A stretch of 64,000 bases of DNA. It comes from Perkinsus olseni (taxonomy: Eukaryota > Perkinsozoa > Perkinsida > Perkinsidae). Of this stretch, positions 46,256 to 64,000 are shown piece after piece; the stretch's first letter is position 1; each line of letters starts with the position of its first letter. The notes below the pieces were generated by a model. That model was not told where the DNA came from, did no database searches, and saw only the letters and a list, made by a program, of their open reading frames with translations. The stretch spans positions 18,177 to 82,176 of the forward strand of contig JABANP010000217.1 in NCBI GenBank assembly GCA_013115135.1, read 5' to 3'. A program made the translations under genes and the position numbers.

Positions 46256-46498
46256 TCAGGTGGAGTTGGAGACGACATTCTCAATCGAGTGCTCCATCGG
46301 CGGTCTCGTCAGATGAGCAGCCGCCTGCAGGAGCTTTGCTGGGATGTCTTTGGTGGCGGGGTGACTGATGAGCTCCTCCTTCTCTGTGTCGAGGGCACCG
46401 AGAATCAAATACATTCCTTCTGCGTTGACTGTATTAAAAGAAATTGGTGAAAGCGATAGAAGAGCATGACGCTGACCTGGTGCAAAGACAAGTGACAC
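46256..46498 (-). CDS. Small hypothetical gene with a 46-nt intron
   Basis: A likely 3'-terminal exon on the minus strand encodes NAEGMYLILGALDTEKEEL then HPATKDIPAKLLQAAAHL and stops near 46257. Just upstream, a 46-nt stretch with good ends (CCAG/GTCAGC ... ATACAG/TC) can be removed in phase to join LVFAP to VNAEGMY. The frame is also open upstream of the apparent ATG at 46498, so more exons may exist. No family is recognised; the composition is that of a soluble helical protein. Confidence 0.35.
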   Translation of the reverse strand: MSLVFAPGQRHALLSLSPISFNTVNAEGMYLILGALDTEKEELISHPATKDIPAKLLQAAAHLTRPPMEHSIENVVSNST

Positions 46499-46699
46499 GG
46501 AATGGTTTAACGGAGCAGCTACGCAGTGATGATGAGGGTCATCCTGAGAATGAAGCGAAGGTGATTGACATAGGGTGAATTGTGGTAATTACGTTCGAGG
46601 TGAATTGATCCGGATACGGAAGCCACTATGTCCTCCTTCCTGTTTTCGCTCAAAGGAATGCCACGGGACAATTAGCGTTTCGCTCTCAGCAATCGCTTG

Positions 46700-48760
46700 G
46701 CGAAATTAGCGAACTTTTGGGCCTTGTGTCTAAGTTTCGGACACTGGGATGCGGGCGTTGGTAGAACTATATTTGTGTTGGCGGGACACTCTGTGGTCGA
46801 GCTGAGCGGAGGACCTTTTGATCAACTGTTGCTTGAATGTGCTCATGCTATCGTTGATAATTACGACGGTCAAAAGTCTTGCGCCCTCAATTCTAACTGG
46901 AAAAAAAGTGAGAAGAGAGTACGGGAGTTTCGGAGAAGCCAATCTCGTTACGCTGTCCGAATCTGTTGTTTTCAACGGGGTTGGGAGCTCGGCGTTACAG
47001 GTGTGGCAGTGCTAGGTCTTGAGATTGCTTCCACTTCGTTGTGGCCGTTTTTGCCCAGTGCTCGAGACTGAGCATCCGAAGGTCGTCAGTTCTATTCCGT
47101 GTAAGTGCGTTTTTGTAGGTTCAGGGGCCCGGTGCCCTCGCCGCCACGGCATCCTCTGTTGATCATCACCGTTCACTAAGGCAGGACTCCGGGAAGATTT
47201 TTATTGACGAGGGCGTCCTCGAGGACACCCTATCGGAATTTCTAGCGACTTTACTGTAATATGACAGGGCGATTCTGACTCATCGCGGATTGCTCGCCGC
47301 CGTTCGGGACGCTCATGAATAGTAGTGGGAGGAGTAGCGAAAGTTGTGGTACTGGTGGTTGAGGGAATAGTAGTAGTCCTCCTTCTCAGTACTGTACGGG
47401 TGGTATTGATATACCCAGTTACCCAGTGTAACATTCGGAATGACTATTACGGAATGACTCGGCGCCTAGCATTCGACTAATTCATTCCCTATAGCTCAAG
47501 AGTCTCTTGCTGTTCTCAGTTTCACTTGCCTCAACACAGAGGAGTACCAGCATGCGAAGGATACGAGTCTGGTAGGGCAGCTGACCCCAGGGGGCAAGTT
47601 GACGCCGAGAGGGAGTAGAACTTTACTCAAACCAAATGCAGCCTGCATCGACCCAGTTATGGTCGCCGGAAGAAGGTCGGTTATCATGTCGGGATGGTGA
47701 TTCTCAGTGCGTTGAGGAAATGCAAGAGAGCAAGAGGCGTCTGATGCTTTGTGATGGCCACGGGTCCTTAGAATGGTCTCGTCCCAGGGCTCGTCATCTT
47801 ACCAGGGCTCGTGTTCTCGCGTGAGAACTGAGCGAAGATACTGGATCAGCGTAAAATGTTGAAGAAGTTAGCGAAGCGATTGCCGGGAGTGACGACTTGC
47901 AAAATTACACGAGAGTAGATGAAAATAATTTTCAATTCTCAAGAAGCAATTCTGTCCATGTGCGGACTGCCACTGTTTTGCAGCTCGCAAGTGACCGCTG
48001 GATGGTTTTCAGGGACGTCAAGACTGGCGCAGACGATGACTACTGGAGAGGGGATGGATGTTCCCATTGCTGTGGGCGGCATGATGCCGATAATGGCGGG
48101 AGGGGTAGGTTATAGGAAACTGTCACGCGTCCCTCGGGGTGGAGTTTCATACGCGTTGGCGAGAGGGAGCCATTTAATTTGTGCATTTATGAAAGGCGGA
48201 GTCTTTGAGTAACGCGAAACGATTCTCATCTGGATCCATCGTGTGCCTTTTTCATATGGGTTATACGATCGCTGGAGGCGCTATCGTGTGGGAAGTGCAG
48301 GACCTGCACGCATGCACGCTGAGATCGGACAGATAGCCAGTATTAGGGCATTTGTTTCGTTGGCAAGAAAATATATTCGTGTTTTTTTCATCGTCTCTGG
48401 AGTTTTTTTGAGTGGAAACGGAATTATACACGTCTGAAATGGTAGATTATACCATCACAAGTGAAACGTTTATCAACCTTTACCAGCCAAACAGAAGATC
48501 GCTTCTACCCTCATCGTCTCTGGAGTTGGCTCGCTACGTGCGCCCGGACGCTGTGCGCCTTCGAGGTGCATGCCTCATACTGTCCTTCGACGCTCGTGAC
48601 ATCCGCTTTTGTAGAGATCGTCTTCAGTTCTCGCCGATCGGAGCAGCAGCAACGACGGCAGGCCATCAGCCGCCGCCGGCAAGACGGTGGAGCATGGGGA
48701 ATATCAGGTATAGGAGCAGATGTATCGTCAAGGAGTGTCTGAAGTCGAATGAGCTTCAGT
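46700..48760. other. Unresolved stretch upstream of the adenylate cyclase
   Basis: Several frames up to 124 codons, none with a recognised domain. Missing 5' exons of the cyclase may lie here. Possible exon-like peptides occur near 48850-48925 (RPFIPWRLRFILGSETSG, followed by a GTGAGT donor). Confidence 0.25.
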
Positions 48761-48772
48761 AGGGAAGGTCGT

Positions 48773-48784
48773 GGGTTCGATCCC
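48773..48784 (+). other. tRNA B-box-like motif
   Basis: GGGTTCGATCCC, a perfect match to the Pol III B-box/T-loop consensus, within GGTCGTGGGTTCGATCCCTT. No full cloverleaf can be drawn around it. It is one of a cluster of such motifs at the cyclase locus. Confidence 0.6.
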
Positions 48785-49458
48785 TTGGCGAGGGTGTTAT
48801 TCGCATCGTAGGTTGTCTGTACTGAGCGATAGAAAGTATCGCCGCATACGGCCATTCATACCGTGGAGGCTGAGATTCATACTTGGATCGGAAACGAGTG
48901 GATCGGCGAAGGCGTGGCGTGAGGTGAGTCTGTGCTTTTGTCGCGCGCCACGAAATTCCTCTAATATTCGACGCGGTATCGGAGACGTCCTCGAACTCCC
49001 AGTTGAATGCAGGAGTCCTGACCGCTCGCCATACGCATTGAAGCTTAGACAAAAGCTTGGTCAATGTAACTGTTGTACCCATCTCCCCTCTCAGTGTGCA
49101 CCTGTCCCACAGTTAACGATAGTTGAAGCCGCCCCCCTTGGCCAGTGCGCGGTGCCAGTACTGGTACATGTCGAACTTCTATCAATATTTATCAGTCAAA
49201 CCTGATTATAATATTCTACCAAACTAGTGGACATTCCGATGTATAAATACTAGCCTCGCCGGAGCGCGGGCCCGTGCGTGTAAAACTTGACAAATGTGAG
49301 TATTTCACGCACGATTATGGCCGCGTAGCATAAAAGTATTGATGGACCCCCAAATTCAATGTTAATCGTAATTGTTAATAGTATGGACCTTCGGCCATGA
49401 GTTTGGGCGGTCAGTGGAAGAATGTTGCCCCAGCCTGATGGTGGCTGCCGTCGGTCAG

Positions 49459-52435
49459 GTTCAGTACACGAAGTTGGAAAGAGAAACGATGTGGAGGGCC
49501 TTTGGGCAGCCGACGCATTGGCTCACGCTGGAGTTTGCTGATGATGCTTCTCTGGAAAAAGGCTTCCAGGTAGGATCGAACCCGGGTCATTCGATTGCTA
49601 GACCTGGCGAAGTACTGGCTTAGCTGTTCTCAGGTGCATTTTGCGGAGAGGGCGCGGAGGTACCCATATTGGTATTTCCTTCTGACAGCCTGTCTAATTG
49701 TCCTCTATTGCTGGCTTCAATATGAAATACTCCGATCGAACCATCCTAGCGTCACCTTCGTCCGTGTCATCATGACCGAGCCGACGGCATTATTCTTCTT
49801 TGCAGCTATCGTGAAACTATCAGTAGGTCTCGGGTTCGATCCCTGCGGATGACATTTCTCCTTCATATTCTCAGATCGAGGTCATCTTCCTGGCGGATTC
49901 TCTCTGGTTCGTTGAGAACTACTTTCCCATTCAACTCCTCCTGGCCGCTCTCTCGGGCAGCGCGGTCCTCTTCTGGATGTACTGGAGCCCCTTGGTAAGA
50001 TTCATGGTGATTTCGGGAAAAGTTGGTATCTGGAGGACCCCGGCATTCCGATAGCTCGTCATTGTCTGCCATGCCTTTTTCGTGGCGCGGTGACGATGCT
50101 TGCCGTCTTTCGTCAGATTCTGAAATACTACATTTGGCCGCTACAAGAAGCTCTCACCTATAGTGTCCTCATGGCCTTCTCAATAGTCCTTTTCAAACTA
50201 AGGTGGGCGTTTTTGCAGCATCGCTCCGCCGATTTTAACCTCGAAACTTTCCCGTTCCTGTTGGGCCAACAGTGTTGGCTTTATGGGTGTGGAGACATTA
50301 CAGGCCACCGGTAGCTACAGAAATCCAGCCTCCTCCGCCATGCCTCTTATAAACGCGTTCACTCGACGATAGTCTCTTTGTGGCGGAGTTTGACGCATCG
50401 CCGTGACGCGACGCGATCCTGCATGGTGTCCCATCCGCGTGCTATCTCTATCGTTCTGGAAAATGTCCATAGAAGGTTATGGCATTGCGATAATAATGGC
50501 TTTCAGGTTCATCCACATTCTCTACCTGAGTATCTACCTCCTGGCCTTCCTTTTCTCAGCGCGTTGGATCGCCTTGGGGACGTATCCTTTCGAGCAGTCT
50601 AGTTTTTTTCACGAACCTCTACGAAGTGTCGCTATCATAGTCGCTCCCACCGCTGTTTTGGCGACGATTCGGTACATGTTTGAACTGCTGGTGAGGAAGG
50701 ATTATGTCCTTTCGATGACTCTTGCGACGGAGTCAGACCGGTCAGAGCGATTGCTCATGAATGTATTGCCAATACCAATCATCCAACAACTCAAAGACAT
50801 ACAAGACGATCAGCTGAGACAAGTACAAGGAGGGCCAACAGAAGGTGGCACTCTACTCACGCGGCAGATGGCGATGGGCTTTGCGGAGGCCTACGACCAA
50901 GTCTCGATTTTGTTTTCTGACGTGGTGGCGTTTACCGCTATTGGATCGAGCATAGAACCGGAGGAACTCGTCCAACTACTGAATGAACTCTTCACGCTGT
51001 TTGACGACATCGCGGAGGAGTGCGGGTTGGAGAAGATAAAAACTATTGGTGATGCGTACATGGCTGCTGCCGGTCTACCACGACACAACCCGATGCATGC
51101 CCATGCTACGGCTAGGATGGGCCTTATGATGATCGAGGTGAGCTACAGTAGTGCTCGTATCGTACTCGAACTGATTTTTTGGTAGTGGTTTTCTCTGCGA
51201 TAACCGTCAATGAGGAATTAGTTCTCAATAGCACCAATCAGAAGTCTGTTCGTTATACTGACGCTGTTAGTAGCTCGCCAATATCAGTTAGCTGATGGAC
51301 TGGAAATTCTCGAGCTTTTTGTGCGTTGAACAAAGGGTGTAATCCATCGCGATGGCTACGTCGCGCGCCACGAAATTCCGCAACCAACCATGCGCCTGGT
51401 TTGCCTCGGTACTATGGAAGCCATGGCGTTTACAGCTCTCGTCATCGTCAGGCCCTGCAGGACCCTTCCAAAGTGGAGGACGGCAACCTCGTGGATCAGC
51501 TCGGTCATCCGCTGAGGATACGAGTTGGTATCCACTCGGGCCACTGCGTTGCTGGTGTGATTGGCCGGAAGAAATTCATTTATGATGTCTGGGGAGACTG
51601 CGTCAACACAGCCTCGAGGTGAGGGAGGCAGATTTAAATGGTCGTGAAAAATGCCGCATGGTGGGATCGAACCCGATACGTAACGGTTCCACCACGACCG
51701 ACTGCACTGAATGGTCATGCGTCCAATGCGCTTCGAAAACTTTTGCGCACTGTGTGATACCAATCTAGTGGCCTCAGCGGAATTCAGTTCCTTCTGGGAA
51801 TTCCCGGGAAAAACCACGTCCGTGCCACCTCAGCACGGTTGTATCGTCTAGCTTTCGTCGTGCTTGAGTAACGCACTGCGGAAAATCTATCTCGACTCTT
51901 GATCAGGATGGAGTCCCACGGCACTGAGATGCGCGTGCACTGCTCGGAGGACACGGCCAATGAGGTGCGAGACAGCTTCGACTTGACCTGTAGAGGCGTG
52001 ATGCAAGTAAAGGGAAAGGGGCTGATGACCACCTACTACATCAATAAGGAGCGCAGAGCGAGCAAGAAGAGGGACTATAGAGGTAGCGCGCGCCCTGCTG
52101 ATCGATTTGGGAGGCCGCTCTCCACGTTAGGCTCTTATGGAGAATCTTTATCACTGTCGCATGCCATGGTATCCGAGGTCGAAGATGGGAGCTCAGGAGA
52201 TGAGGAGATGTCATCTGATGATTCATCTGATGCGAGTGCTGGTGGCCTGTGGGAGAACCACGCTGCGTCAGAAAGGAGCGATCGCATTGCCTCTCTGAAC
52301 GTGGAAGAAATCGGAATTGTTGGTATGACTCGGCGACGGCTTGGTTCGACGCACTCGGACGGCAGCCCGAGGGGGACCTTGTCATCGCCACGACCACCAG
52401 AGAGATCCAGCTTGGGTACAACGGCGAGGCTTTGA
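49459..52435 (+). CDS. Six-TM class III adenylate cyclase (5' exons missing)
   Basis: Makes cAMP at a membrane. Seven in-phase exons: 49459-49569, 49634-49822, 49875-49994, 50117-50202, 50507-51137, 51452-51618 and 51907-52435 (610 codons plus stop). The N-terminal part has [16 protein letters not shown] and about six TM helices (from [15 protein letters not shown] to [14 protein letters not shown]). A linker with [13 protein letters not shown] leads to one catalytic domain: first metal Asp in [13 protein letters not shown]; second in [16 protein letters not shown]; then [25 protein letters not shown], which holds the transition-state Asn and Arg. The Lys of KIKT and the Asp of YDVWG are the adenine-selecting residues of adenylate cyclases; guanylate cyclases have Glu and Cys. 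A Ser/Asp-rich tail of about 120 residues follows. One catalytic domain implies homodimerisation. Three of six introns contain tRNA B-box-like sequence. The real start lies upstream. Confidence 0.88.
49570..49633 (-). other. 64-nt intron carrying an antisense tRNA-like 3' half
   Basis: The intron runs GTAGGATC ... TTCTCAG between two in-phase exons. Its minus strand reads CTAGCAATCGAATGACCC then GGGTTCGATCC, i.e. an anticodon-arm-like stretch directly followed by a T-arm/B-box. Both junctions carry CAGGT, a possible 5-bp duplication of a proto-splice site. Confidence 0.6.
49823..49874 (+). other. 52-nt intron carrying a sense B-box
   Basis: The intron runs GTAGGTCTC then GGGTTCGATCCC (49832-49843), ending TTCTCAG. 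Exons join in phase (KLS to IEVIFLADS). The B-box makes up nearly a quarter of the intron. Confidence 0.6.
51663..51674 (-). other. B-box motif in cyclase intron 51619-51906
   Basis: The minus strand reads TATCGGGTTCGATCCCACC. About 35 nt before it on that strand is GCAGTCGGTCG, loosely like an A-box. It could be a degenerate tRNA or tRNA-derived SINE of about 70 nt (51655-51722), antisense to the host gene. Confidence 0.5.
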
Positions 52436-52469
52436 CCGAAATCGGGTGCATCAAGGGTGCCCTTTGCGG

Positions 52470-52480
52470 TGATCGAACCT
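52470..52480 (-). other. Degenerate B-box just after the cyclase stop codon
   Basis: The minus strand reads AGGTTCGATCA, 35 nt downstream of the cyclase stop codon, presumably in the 3' UTR. Confidence 0.4.
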
Positions 52481-52884
52481 GGGCGTCCCGCATGAACGTT
52501 ATAAATTGACTGATAACAATTGATATTTTGTATGGTAGATTACGGGATTGTAAGTTCTCACGCAAGTTTCATTCTTGCCCAATCCTGTTGTTCTTCGTAA
52601 CCAAGGGAGGATAGTTTGGCGGGTGGGAGGGGAAGATGTATATTTTTTTGCCCTCCCAGATATATTCGTGACTTTCGACGTGACGTGCGGTGTTTCATGA
52701 TGATTGCGACGCGAGCGGAGCTTCCCGTTCCGTGCTTTTTTTGTGCGTCTCTTATTCGAGTAACTTCGTCACAACTATGCTGATTGAACTTGCGAGCCAC
52801 GTGCCATTTGAAAGCTCACGGTTCGTGTATTCTATACAAAATAGAAGATAGTCATCATCCCTGTTTTACGTTCAAGACTGTGTC

Positions 52885-52960
52885 GTAAGGCGTAGTGGAT
52901 GCAACCGAGCGAACACGGAAAGGGCGGGCATGGGTTCGAACCCGTCAGTGCCGAGCTCCA
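52885..52960 (+). other. tRNA-like/SINE-like sequence with perfect B-box
   Basis: AAGGCGTAGTGGATGC ... CGGGCATGGGTTCGAACCCG (B-box 52932-52943). The T-arm can pair but the other arms cannot be drawn convincingly, so it is not called as a functional tRNA. Confidence 0.4.
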
Positions 52961-52999
52961 CTTTTTCGCCACGAAGGCCCAGCGTCTATACAGTGTTAA

Positions 53000-54702: not shown

Positions 54703-56532
54703 TTGATGCCCTTCTCTACCTCCTCTCGGCCCTCGGAGGGATCTGATGCCCGGCAGCCCGGGCTGGGAGCATTTTTGCGGCGGAAGGGGATCGGCGTGAA
54801 GGAGAGGGGAGACGAAGGCGATGTCAAATTAACAGAGATGAGTGGGCATAAGACCTCGCCTGTGACATTGAGTCGCCCTACTACGTCCAAGCCCCCACCG
54901 GCCACAGCACTCGAACAAACATTAGAGGACAAGGAGGTGGGGACTTCTTCGTTTGAGTGCCTCTCCGATAGTTGTATTTCAGGTCGCCGTGGATCCGCGT
55001 AAATTCTCGCCGGGCGGAGACGGGCAGCGCGGGCTCAACGACCTGCCAGATGAAATGCTCCAGATCATATTACAATACATTCCTCCGGAGAACAAGATCA
55101 ACTCCTGTACGATGGTCCCCACTCGCTGACCGCACCCCTCACCACTTCTGATGATCAGCTCCCTTCGGGTCCCTGGGTCTCACCTGCGCTCGCCTCGAGC
55201 ATTTAGTGCGGACCTTCAACGGCAGCAACCAGCTGTGGATAACCCGTGGTGAAAACAAGCCCATCACCGATGAGTTTGTGTAAGCCGCAGAGGATGTACC
55301 GATTCGAAGGCACGTTATGGTTTGCAGATTGAGGACTTTTCGCCGGCGGCGGGGGGTCTCTCGAGTGGTACTACATGGCTTAGCCACGCTCTCATCTGAC
55401 ACTTTTATCCGAATGGCTCAGCTGCCGAGTGAATATTATAAGAACTTCGTTGAGATAGAACTGTGCGACTGCAAGAAGCTCAATGCCACTTGCTTGAACA
55501 CATTCATAAAGAAGTAGGTTCCGTACTTCTGTGGGCAAGTGCTGTGCGTGAGCGGTGGCAGGTGTCCTTCGCTTGCTCGTCTGGGGTTGTTCGACATCCC
55601 AGCGGCCACGGCCAATCTTACCTTCAATTGCATCCGCGAGGCGTGCAAAAATTTAAAAATAATCCGCGTTGGTAAGCATTGCTGCCTCAACCTTTCTTCT
55701 CTGATGGATCCGCCAGTAGGAGCTCACGACTGCAAATTCACTTCAAGAATGAGCAAGAATGGCCTTTCCAACATCACCATGCCGTTGAGGGATTCACCCT
55801 CCTGCCTGGAGGAAATCATTTTGCTGAGACTGGACATGGCTAAGATCGGACAGTGTGGCCTGGACATGATCGCCGACCGTTTGCAAGCATCCCTGGTATG
55901 ACGACTCCTGTTCTGCAGGGACGGGATATCGTCTGTCAGTTGAGACTCGATCTGTCCAATCCGAAGGGAGAGTGCCCATCGGTTGAGAGCCTAGGGAAAT
56001 TGAGCCGCCTCGAGGGTTTGAGGTTGGCTGGGTGGGTGGGAACTGCGGCTGGGTGACTACTGTAGAGCTCTCACGGTTTTACTAGGTGGTCCTTCTCATC
56101 GGAGGCACTGACGTCAGCGCTGGCCAGCCTCAAGGAGTTGAAGCTCCTCGACTTAAGCGAGTCATCAATAGACGATGCGGGTGAATGCGCAACTCGGCCG
56201 TACGCAGGTCCGAGCTTTGATCTTTTCTCAGGCTTGTCGCTCCTTTCGAAGACTATGCCGCGAATAAGGTGGTTGAGGCTGCGCGGCTGCCGATCAGTGA
56301 GCGACGACGGTGTGATCAGCATCCTGGAGAACTGTAACCAACTTGAGATGCTCGACCTCTCTTACAACAGAAAGGTGAGTAGACGGTTGTCAAGCACAAG
56401 AACGGTCGGTCTGACCGACTCGATGTGCAGATATCGAGGGCCATCCTTCAGAGACTGAGGTGTGTGGCCAGCAAAGAGCGATTCAAAGGGCTCGGAATAA
56501 AGGAGACCAACCTGGTGAGAATCGATCGCTGA
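54703..56532 (+). CDS. F-box/LRR protein, copy A
   Basis: Multi-exon. The N-terminal Ser/Gly-rich leader (SRPSEGSDARQPGLGAF, LRRKGIGVKERG) is shared with copies B and C. An F-box follows a 48-52 nt intron (LPDEMLQIILQYIPPENKI, about 55040-55110). LRR exons then give LGLTCARLEHLVRTFNGSN, LCDCKKLNATCLNTF, LGLFDIPAATANLTFN, SNITMPLRDSPSCLEEI, LKELKLLDLSESSIDD, IRWLRLRGCRSVSDDGV and LEMLDLSYNRK, with a last exon ending GLGIKETNLVRIDR at stop 56532. It is probably an SCF ubiquitin-ligase substrate receptor. Relative to copy C, exon 1 is fused in frame to the middle of exon 3 (deletion of exon 2 and the Skp1/POZ-like segment). Frames around 55110-55160 could not be joined cleanly, so the gene may be degenerating. 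Confidence 0.65.
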
Positions 56533-61175: not shown

Positions 61176-64000
61176 ATGTCCTCCTCTTCCTCCTCTCGGC
61201 CCTCGGAGGGATCTGATGCCCGGCAGCCTGGGCTGGGAGCGTTCTTGCGGCGGAAGGGAATCGGCGTGAAGGAGAGGGGAGACGAAAGCGATGTGAAATT
61301 AACAGAGATGAGTGGGCATAAGACCTCGCCTGTGACGTTGAGTCGCCTTACTGGTGAGTTTCAGCTGTTCAACAACAAGAAGAGGAAGCTCGGAAGGAGA
61401 ACAGAGAGGTCCTCAGCAGGAGTGAGATCAGTAACGTTCTTGAGTGGCTTCGAGTCCGTTCCGTAGAGTCGTTGTAACCGCCGCCTCACCCCAGGCCGAA
61501 TAGCCTGCTGAATAGTCTAGTGGGGCTTGAGCGCAGAAAGGTTTGCGTCTTTCCACCTCTCCCCCTTCGACCATCTCCACGATGGATTTTTGCGTGCTTC
61601 TATACATGGGAGTTGATGCGCATTAGACAAGGACGGCAGTCTTGCTGACAGGTTCGTTGTTGTCTCAAATGGATGCTCTCACCAGTGTGATACAACCTGG
61701 GATCAGAGGAGCTGTCAAGGACACATGGGTGCAGCAGCCGAGGGTGATGCCGAAAGGTGTGTAACGGTGCTCTGAGTTATGGGTTCGTGAGACATCTGAT
61801 GGGATTATGATCACCTACTGCTTCATGGTGCTGGGAGTTTCTTTTTCATACCGTCACTGGAAGCAAGCCGAGAAATCCTTTGGAGGATGCCGGACTCAAT
61901 CAATCTGACCCTGGACTGGAGAAATAGCGCTAAGTTGCGGCCTTAGGTGCTGCGACAAGCACGAGCGGCAAGTCGCCGTCGTTCCAAATGGAGAGGAAAT
62001 TGAAGGAGGCTCGAAAGGTCCCCTTGCCGACGCGGCTGTCGGAGGGGCACAGGAAGATCAAGAAAAGCGGGTATGATCTAATTTGCATTCCGCCGAGGAC
62101 TCCGAGGTCTGAGCTCTCAATCAGGTTCCGGTGCGGCTCCTCGGTCACAACAGCCCAGGGCAAGCAGTTGAAGAGAGATCCCTCAGCAGGTCCCGTCTCC
62201 GAAGTTAAATTCTGGAAAGGTCGGTGTCGGGGAAAATCGGATGGACAACGTCTTTGCTTGGCCTCTTTGTCAGATAGTCCGAGATCGGGTCCCACCGGAT
62301 GCTGGGTTGAGGTCACCGGCTTTGTGAGGGAGATAGCGATGCCAGTGGCAGAGCTCAGTCGCCTGGTGGATCGGTAGGCCCGGTGCTGGCTATTGAATTG
62401 ATCGACGCGCCCGTCGCCTTCCAGGTTCATGTCTGATGGGAAGGTAACTCTGATGCACCGCAATGGAGACACGGTGAGAGACTCGCCCGTGTTGATTGCG
62501 GTTGAATGTGATTTTGTCAAGATAATGCTCCGGGACGCTTCTCCGGAAGATTTGGCCCACTTCACGCGGTGGCTGCGAGAGTGCAAGTCCCCGCCGGCCA
62601 CGACAGTGAAACGAAAGTTAGAGGACCAGGTCGATGGAAATGACGCAGCGAAGCGGCGAGCCAGCGCGGAGGGGCACCGGTTGGGAAAACCGCAGCCACA
62701 GTCTGGTCAGGTGAAGCCGAAAGAGGAGGTGGGGATTTCGTCGATTGGGGGCCTCTTTGATAGCTGCATTTTAGGTCGCCATCGAGCCGCGAGAATTCTC
62801 GTCTGCGGGAGACGGGTCGCGTGGGCTCAACGGCCTGCCTGATGAAGTGCTTCAGATTGTATTAGAGCACATTCCTCCGGAGAACAAGATCAACTCCTGT
62901 ACGATGGTCCTCACGCGCTGACCGCAGTCCTCACTATTTCTGATGATCAGCTCCCTTCGGGTCTCTGGGGCTCACCTGCGCTCGCCTCGAGCATTTAGTG
63001 CGGACCTTCAACGGCAGCAACCAGCTGAGGATAATCAGTGGTGGAAACAAGCCCATCACCAATGAGTTCGTGTAAGTCCAAGATGACGTACCGGTCCGAG
63101 GGTGCGGTACGGTTTGCAGGTTGACGACTTTCCGCCGGCGGCGTGGGGTCTGTCGAGTGGTACTCGCTGACTTTACCTCGCTACTACCTGAGATGCTCAC
63201 CCGAATGGCTCAGCTGCCCAGCAGTGAATATTATAAGCATATCACGCAGGTCTGTTTAAGAGGATGTGGGAAGTTAACCGGGAAAGCCATTAACATGTTC
63301 ATGAAGAGGTAGCTGCGTGAAACACTCCGGGCGGGGCTCGAACCCGCGGCCACGTGCTTAAAAGGCACGCGCTCTACCGACTGAGCTACCGGAGCTGTTA
63401 TTTGGAGACCCTCAATTTCGTAGGTGTGCTGTTCTCTCCCATATCGACTTGTTCGACATTCCTTCGGCTGCTGCGGATGCGACATTCGCTGGTATTCGGC
63501 GGAACTGCAGAAAGTTGAAGACGATTCGCGTTGGTGGGACACCTCCATCCCTAGCTGGGCTCCGCCGATCAACTCCCTAGGAGCCCTCCGCCGTCGCTTC
63601 ACCTCGAGTATGACGACAGAGAGCATCTCCAACATCACCATGCCGTTGAGGGACTCACCCTCCTGCCTGGAGGAGGTCTCCCTGCCGAGACTGGACATGG
63701 GGAAGATCGGACAGTGCGGCATAGACATGATAGCCGACCGCTTGCATGCATCCCTGGTATGCCGTCTCCTGTTCTGCAAGGAAGCGACATTGTCCGTCAG
63801 TTGCGACTCGACCTGTCCAACCCGGAAGGTGAGTGTCCATCGCCGGACAATCTCAGCAAGCTGACTAGTCTGAAGTCGCTAAACCTGAGCGGGTGAGCTG
63901 GAACTGGGCTGACCACTGTGTCGCCTCCACGGTCGTGTTAGGTGGTCCTCTTCCTCGGAGGCACTGGTGTCGGCGCTGACGAGCCTGGGAGAGTTGGAGT
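61176..64000 (+). CDS. F-box/LRR protein, copy C (truncated by window end)
   Basis: Exons inferred in phase: 61176-61353 (leader), 61947-62373 (basic region, RKLKEARKVPLPTRLSEG), 62425-62728 (FMSDGKVTLMHRNGDTV, then ECDFVKIMLRDASPED, faintly like a Skp1/POZ fold, then a Lys-rich stretch KRKLED), and 62775-62906 (F-box: LPDEVLQIVLEHIPPENKI). LRR exons follow: LTCARLEHLVRTFNGSNQL (about 62965-63075), VCLRGCGKLTGKAINMF (ends 63308), HIDLFDIPSAAADATF (from 63424) and SNITMPLRDSPSCLEEV (about 63630), then NLSKLTSLKSLNLSG near the window end. The intron 63309-63423 contains a whole tRNA-Lys antisense. It is the most complete of the three tandem copies. A frame conflict near 62907-62960 (shared with copy A) and another near 63570 are unresolved. 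Confidence 0.65.
63323..63395 (-). tRNA. tRNA-Lys (UUU), third copy, filling an F-box/LRR intron
   Basis: 73 nt: acceptor GCTCCGG/CCGGAGT (G1-U72), D-arm GCTC..GAGC, a perfect anticodon stem CGTGC/GCACG with loop CTTTTAA, T-arm GCGGG-TTCGAGC-CCCGC, discriminator G. It differs from the 18.5/31.9 kb copies by compensatory acceptor changes and perfect anticodon and T stems. It occupies 73 of the 115 nt of intron 63309-63423, antisense to the host gene. Confidence 0.95.

Follow-up and report, generated by a model that had tools for sequence, protein, structure and literature searches.

A probable tRNA-like source for an introner-like family of very short introns in Perkinsus olseni

The DNA analysed here (the window) is a stretch of 64,000 nucleotides from contig JABANP010000217.1 of Perkinsus olseni, in which a class III adenylate/guanylate cyclase gene (PF00211 in homologs) lies at 46,262-52,437 on the plus strand, as defined by its open frame, homologs and tblastn for all but the first exon or exons. 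Its product is 97% identical to a P. olseni protein (over the 38% of the query in the best local alignment), 81% to a P. chesapeaki protein (28% of the query) and 74% to a P. marinus protein (60%), and the upstream exons were added by tblastn with the P. olseni and P. chesapeaki proteins. Perkinsus cyclase genes carry the name Nitrogen permease regulator 2 in public records (P0001, P0003, P0004), and the stretch encoded at about 50,700-51,137 is kept in P0002 and P0029 and missing from P0001 and P0003. A sequence-only reading of the window had proposed six introns in this gene, three of them with a motif resembling the B-box of transfer RNA (tRNA) genes, and had taken these as candidate tRNA-derived introners, that is, elements which create introns. 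The six introns (49,570 to 51,906) were correct, as taking them out leaves one open frame and P. chesapeaki proteins cross the junctions of 49,570-49,633 and 49,823-49,874.

All three of the motif-bearing introns hold, but the true count in the gene is four, because the motif at 48,773, which had been placed outside the gene, lies inside an intron of 53 nt (48,759-48,811). There the tblastn alignments of the P. olseni protein P0001 and the P. chesapeaki protein P0003 break at 48,759/48,810, and the spliced product reads SNELQ/LSVLSDRKYRR (the slash marks the junction), in agreement with P0001; the intron is largely a sense copy of a tRNA 3'-half element (B-box 48,774-48,784; match to our element model R1 at 48,765-48,793, E 4e-5). 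The second, 49,570-49,633 (64 nt), holds an antisense copy (B-box complement 49,573-49,583; R1 match 49,556-49,591, minus strand, E 7e-5), its junction being crossed by P0003 and P0004, which read EKGFQ/VDFA. The third, 49,823-49,874 (52 nt), is a sense copy made up of GTAGGTC, a T-arm, acceptor-like bases and ATTTC..TCAG (R1 E 4e-7), across which P0003 reads AAIVKL/AIEVIF; neither 64 nor 52 is divisible by three, and the frame is open only when both introns are removed. In the fourth, 51,619-51,906 (288 nt), an antisense element sits near the 5' end (51,647-51,679; R1 E 3e-6) and makes up only part of the intron, and the matches of P0001, P0003 and P0004 end at 51,619 and restart at 51,905. 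R1 is a sequence-only model built from a 43-row alignment whose rows include these four intron sites, and its top matches on the 64 kb are the four cyclase introns, above three true tRNA-Lys genes, a rank which is partly by construction because their sequences are model rows. The remaining introns of the gene, all on the plus strand, are without the element: 49,995-50,116 (122 nt; open frame and tblastn), 50,203-50,506 (304 nt; open frame) and 51,138-51,451 (314 nt; open frame), the last without a T-arm element and with a different repeat core, TTTCGTGGCGCGCGAC, on the minus strand at 51,360-51,375.

The excess of the motif that had been claimed for the surroundings of the gene is real and greater than first stated: in the whole window GGTTCGANNCC occurs nine times against 0.57 expected, a number that none of 100 shuffles reached (maximum four), and three of the nine matches are the true tRNA-Lys genes. 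The five fits reported around the gene occupy four places, 48,774, 49,833, 51,663 and 52,932/52,933, the last being a palindrome counted on both strands. Two further sites, at 49,573 (GGTTCGATCCT) and 52,470, fall outside the nine-base motif, but both are detected by the looser R1 (the former is among the 43 model rows), the latter within a weak partial match 3' of the stop codon (52,456-52,483, minus strand; 13.5 bits, E 0.006). Across the 61.5-Mb draft genome, with the reversed pattern as control, GGTTCGATCCC has 605 + 584 = 1,189 copies against 14 + 13 = 27, and GGTTCGANNCC, true tRNA genes counted in, has 2,301 + 2,157 = 4,458 against 282 + 320 = 602. Allowing one mismatch in GGTTCGATCCC gives 4,791 against 751, with exactly one mismatch in 3,602 against 724 (variants of the source counted in), while the 19-mer AGGTCCCGGGTTCGATCCC with up to three mismatches gives 2,312 against 14. 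Genome-wide, the T-run at its fixed distance is followed within ten bases by CAG in 137 cases and by GAC in 51, some of these 51 overlapping CAGAC. That B-box-like words occur in introns by chance and were simply picked out by eye is next to impossible: some single matches are chance, such as the exonic strict match at L069:4,706 in a gene which we take to be NSUN-like (L-numbers denote loci of this genome, of which L069-L071 were chosen for many B-box matches), but counts 7 to 165 times above controls refute chance as the general explanation.

The shape of the unit was taken from a profile of 86 of 93 non-tRNA sites, aligned on the GGTTCGA B-box. This profile takes in the sites of L039-L068, which were found by a pattern fixing GTAGG and GGGTTCGATCC, together with some paralogous pairs; the same consensus comes from the 43-row alignment, which is without pattern-chosen sites except two in the window. 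Conservation spans about -8 to +26 around the B-box, roughly 35 nt, with the flanks at background, and the order is variable-loop AGGTC (tRNA positions 44-48), T-arm, seven variable bases at acceptor positions, C or T at 72, A at 73 and a T-run (TTTT), corresponding to tRNA positions 44-73 plus an RNA polymerase III (Pol III) terminator. Essentially no signal lies upstream of position 44, so the anticodon arm, which the sequence-only reading had recognised in the intron at 49,570, does not belong to the element in general. Sense and antisense introns have this unit in common, including AGGTC and the C-A-TTTT at tRNA spacing. Outside the seven ascertained (B-box) columns, the unit was compared with 41 real tRNA 3' halves from the genome, and the best similarity was 13/23 in the median, compared with 10 for shuffled sequences (95% point 12). 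The B-box stands at the distance from a terminator-like T-run seen in tRNAs, as in tRNA-derived short interspersed nuclear elements (SINEs). A search of the window and 12 loci with Rfam passed only true tRNAs, namely the three tRNA-Lys genes in the window and one tRNA in the 12 loci, most of which have element introns (L041:2,678-2,750, outside these introns), the element copies being under the cloverleaf threshold. The profile, which reaches 45 nt upstream, has no A-box signal, longer tRNA-like copies being seen singly and by eye, and among its 86 sites no tRNA-unrelated body or tail of the element's own was seen.

A total of 79 motif sites entered an intron scan, from which 35 element introns at 21 loci were hand-picked by score, length and reading frame (44 were left unjudged), 19 of them sense and 16 antisense. 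Their lengths run from 42 to 75 nt, with medians of 53 nt (sense) and 51 nt (antisense), and the unit takes up a median of 66% of the intron; the pads between element and intron ends have medians of 7 and 10 nt and are spread, from -14 to 34 on the 5' splice-site side. These introns are thus alike in sequence at unrelated positions of different genes, sharing the ~35-nt unit, the likeness being short and partial. Loci chosen with the GTAGG pattern supply 10 of the 19 sense introns (12 with two from the window) and 1 of the 16 antisense ones, which biases both the ratio of orientations and the share of introns starting with GTAGG. A first intron search, which admitted introns of up to 400 nt and scored no splice sites, proved too permissive to be used. 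In the second, the median best score was 11.7 for the 79 motif sites and 8.7 for 400 random positions, but the two overlap widely (motif lower quartile 7.6, random 90% point 12.8), so these scores are no evidence alone and the case for introns is made by Pfam, homologs and length. Eight of nine spliced peptides matched Pfam above the curated cut-off over at least one junction, covering nine junctions in total in a kinesin motor, metallophosphatase (two), helicase C-terminal, ammonium transporter (two), choline kinase, TPP enzyme and HEAT domain, the HEAT match starting only four residues ahead of its junction; an alpha/beta hydrolase peptide, the first residues of which were inexact in the query, was below the cut-off and left out of the count. 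In the DEAD-box gene HRI/GRTGRAG is split by a 65-nt intron, and in the kinesin gene GQT/GSGKT is split by one of 49 nt.

A gene finder blind to the B-box was then used, although it is not independent for splice sites because its splice-site model was trained partly on the 35 curated introns. It recovers all six cyclase introns between 49,570 and 51,906 but misses 48,759-48,811. Of 49 sequence pieces, 27 yielded a gene call, and 184 introns were predicted, of which 33 carry the motif (22 at up to 75 nt, 11 longer than 120 nt). An intronic B-box frequency no higher than background would have counted against the sequence-only reading, and the sampled pieces do not show this: with GTAGG-chosen sites and duplicates removed, 22 of 37 B-boxes fall in predicted introns, which make up 27% of the bases (P = 4e-5), or 15 of 28 when the loci dense in hits are left out (P = 0.002); these figures supersede an earlier label count of 28/45, which held duplicates from overlapping loci. 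Short introns, excluding hit-chosen sites, hold 15 B-boxes in 5.2 kb (97 introns, 2.87 per kb) compared to five in 18.2 kb of long introns (73 introns, 0.27 per kb; P = 8e-7), and leaving out the dense loci gives 12 in 4.3 kb (81 introns) compared to one in 14.1 kb (60 introns; P = 3e-7).

This distribution bears on the proposal that tRNA-derived SINEs entered pre-existing introns, which deletion later cut to about 50 nt with the T-arm kept. The long element introns, including 51,619-51,906, fit it, as do the many introns of about 50 nt without the motif (82 of 151 at up to 80 nt), but the roughly tenfold higher B-box density in short introns does not, and an intron of 42-55 nt leaves little space for an older intron beside an element of ~35 nt. 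Furthermore, element introns of up to 120 nt match the remaining short introns in length (P = 0.17), and they fall far below the lengths that those introns would have with 36 nt added (P = 7e-13). This favours the element being the intron over its being a guest in an older one, and we regard trimmed SINE-bearing introns as unlikely.

Taken together, the data are probably best explained by an introner-like family derived from tRNA, with the element itself forming the body of many introns of 42-75 nt, and they suggest that tRNA-like fragments were turned into introns many times over. Thousands of short tRNA-like units (positions 44-73 plus the terminator) are dispersed through the genome; they would have spread, by retroposition or by capture at DNA breaks, from a source that may have been a Pol III-transcribed, tRNA-derived element, and such insertions would have created the introns. 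An insertion into an exon would be tolerated because the pre-mRNA is cut at a GT and an AG near the element ends, the splicing at these sites being predicted from protein continuity over the junctions. For sense copies the variable loop would supply the 5' splice site (GTAGGTC, as in the intron at 49,823) and the T-run would act as a polypyrimidine tract ahead of the 3' AG; CCGTAGGTCGTGGGTTCGA...TATTTTTCC is found in a real tRNA-Ile of the genome, with GTAGGTC in its variable loop, but GTAGG is a common 5' splice site here, including in short introns without the motif. For antisense copies the splice sites would come from the borders, an A-run following right after the 5' GT in several (GTGAAAAATGC, GTAAAATGC), and from both arrangements we infer that the splice sites need little from the target. 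A tentative extension, which we hold to be possible but doubtful, is that the tRNA 3' half is a ready-made mini-intron needing only an AG from the target, and that this lineage used it repeatedly for a sizeable share of its shortest introns, in parallel to other introner-like families; the 12 B-boxes in 81 short predicted introns come mostly from genes chosen for one other match.

Several results weigh against this explanation. The CAGGT noted on both sides of the intron at 49,570 is present, but over the 35 introns there is no target-site duplication, the run shared by left and right borders having a mean of 2.6 against 2.54 expected from shuffled pairings (P = 0.27). With no duplication beyond the splice consensus, and no terminal inverted repeat seen by eye in the conserved unit, the marks of a DNA-transposon-type introner were not found. 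A search for empty sites among copies inside this genome covered three genes and found none: the second copy of the L041 gene (96% identical) and four further copies of the L058 gene (89-96%) retain their introns, and for the ammonium transporter gene the nearest thing to a second copy is a 71% partial match. No intact master copy was found. The acceptor composition differs between sense and antisense copies, a possible sign that copies evolved or were filtered once inserted. The T-stem pairs 49-65, 50-64 and 51-63 are paired in 19, 23 and 23 of 53 sites, no better than shuffled, from which it follows that the source was tRNA-like and not a set of intact tRNAs; covariation of the T-stem as proof of many intact tRNA sources was accordingly rejected. 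Finally, in predicted introns exact GGTTCGATCC outnumbers its single-mismatch copies by 18 to 7 (shuffled-pattern controls 0 and 1.2), by 13 to 7 with duplicates removed and by 10 to 4 without the dense loci, which is unlike a decaying family alone and would be compatible with selection in place or with young copies.

The last of these points speaks for a B-box that is held by selection rather than being the trace of a mobile element; what is selected could be a site in the DNA, such as one bound by TFIIIC where there is no gene, or a splicing signal within introns. Such selection would also account for a core better conserved than its surroundings, although partly this is because the sites were chosen on the core, and a DNA site may lie in both orientations. 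However, AGGTC and C-A-TTTT are conserved at tRNA spacing as well, in either orientation; genome-wide, the relation of exact to one-mismatch copies of GGTTCGATCCC runs in the opposite direction (1,189 and 3,602) and looks like ordinary family divergence; and the T-arm is broken in one of five gene copies (L075). We consider selection of this kind distinctly unlikely. Fragments of tRNA genes or pre-tRNAs might instead have been captured at DNA breaks during repair, as a frequent filler with no mobile family behind it, in keeping with the missing duplication, the variable ends, the want of a master copy and the very variable acceptor bases; unpaired outer T-stems misfit fragments of intact tRNAs, though, and the conserved unit ends rather uniformly, making repair filler very unlikely in our judgement.

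The claim of tRNA-derived introners made from the window thus stands for the tRNA-like 3' half, its genome-wide spread, both orientations and the short introns, but not for target-site duplication. The word introner in its strict sense, meaning insertion at formerly intron-less sites, is used here for a putative history of these introns.

Introns of this genome also contain at least five further short repeat cores (GGAGCGAAGCGATTC, GTATCTTAGGTTGAAG, TTTCGTGGCGCGCGAC, AATCGATCATNNGGGCGCGCGC and GAGGAAATGCAAGATTGAGCAAGATTG), of which TTTCGTGGCGCGCGAC has 149 + 139 = 288 exact copies in the genome against none reversed. Words of 9-11 bases found in at least three segments occur in larger numbers in exons than in introns when the total lengths are equal (460 vs 218 at 10 bases), while for words in at least four segments introns exceed exons from 10 bases up (66 vs 4 at 12 bases). 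Several introner-like families thus seem to coexist here, and the tRNA-like one is the only one to which an origin has been assigned. In the window TTTCGTGGCGCGCGAC lies on the minus strand at 48,940-48,955 as well as in the intron named above, and in L048 and L056 it was seen by eye in short intron-like stretches ending in CAG. The GGAGCGAAGCGATTC core is in introns at L071:3,743-3,797, L057:2,658-2,708, L051:1,992-2,046 and others, GCGGAGCGA being common to 11 introns; GTATCTTAGGTTGAAG, at times with GATAC further on, is in introns at L062:1,379, L071:3,026, L043:283 and in the L058 copies; and AATCGATCATNNGGGCGCGCGC and GAGGAAATGCAAGATTGAGCAAGATTG are two further cores (L041:1,655 and 1,860, L057:2,063; L043:1,649, L055:1,082-1,092).

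Downstream of the cyclase gene, at 52,880-52,975 on the plus strand, is a longer tRNA-like repeat with an A-box-like sequence (by eye) and a B-box, the 3' tail of which recurs near tRNA-Arg arrays. Its copies (also L014:1,048, L019:543 and L031:2,033) have by eye the B-box GGTTCGA(A/C)CCC and a tail GTGCCGAGCTCC(G/A)CTTTTT..ACGAAGGCC. Tandem tRNA gene arrays with steps of about 166-184 bp are found in contigs C778 and C823 of G000, and ARAGORN reports 142 tRNAs in the loci examined, 99 of them Arg, overlapping loci being counted more than once. Elsewhere in the window two predicted 46-nt introns, 54,937-54,982 and 62,729-62,774, are alike (GTGGGGA-TTC-TCG-TTG...GATAG-TG-ATTT-AG) and are perhaps in duplicated genes.

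Like tRNA-derived SINEs, the element has a B-box and a T-run and is dispersed in both orientations, but it is only ~35 nt long, has neither body nor tail of its own in the profile and no target-site duplication, and few of its copies, judged by eye, have an A-box. Single introns have reportedly been traced to SINE insertions, for example in rice catalase; there too a tRNA-derived element became an intron, but those are one-off cases whereas the family here is on a genome scale. Introners, or introner-like elements, are said to have been treated by Huff et al. in 2016. In Gozashti et al. 2022 (PMC9860276), introner origins, where readable, are DNA transposons, with target-site duplications in 49 of 130 and terminal inverted repeats in 72 of 177 judgeable families and family median lengths of 30-654 nt, and the main text mentions neither tRNA, SINE nor Perkinsus. 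The Perkinsus element introns resemble the introners in that account in being similar introns at unrelated positions in many genes, in thousands of copies, with splice sites partly from the insertion site, and short families exist there, as do families without target-site duplications or terminal inverted repeats; they differ in their tRNA-like core, and in that intron gain is deduced, whereas the origins given there are DNA transposons (PMC9860276). The Amoebophrya introners, in the part of PMC7789003 consulted, have inverted repeats of 8-20 nt, direct repeats of 3-5 nt and often non-canonical splice sites, and Perkinsus is used there for gene content and pathways, not introners. They are likewise invasive short introns in a related lineage, but the Perkinsus element introns are GT-AG, lack a direct-repeat signal and have a tRNA-like core. 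No tRNA-derived introner family was found among the titles and abstract openings listed from the open-access literature, preprints excluded, and what was listed on Perkinsus had nothing on one either.

A tRNA-like source for an introner-like family in the shellfish parasite Perkinsus olseni is therefore probable but not proven. Such introns are near the smallest size a spliceosome can handle, and introns so tiny would, if the source is as proposed, affect gene annotation. The origin of new introns is a long-standing question, and a genome-wide tRNA-like source, if true, would explain the splicing of both orientations and suggest a route that is RNA-derived or based on repair.

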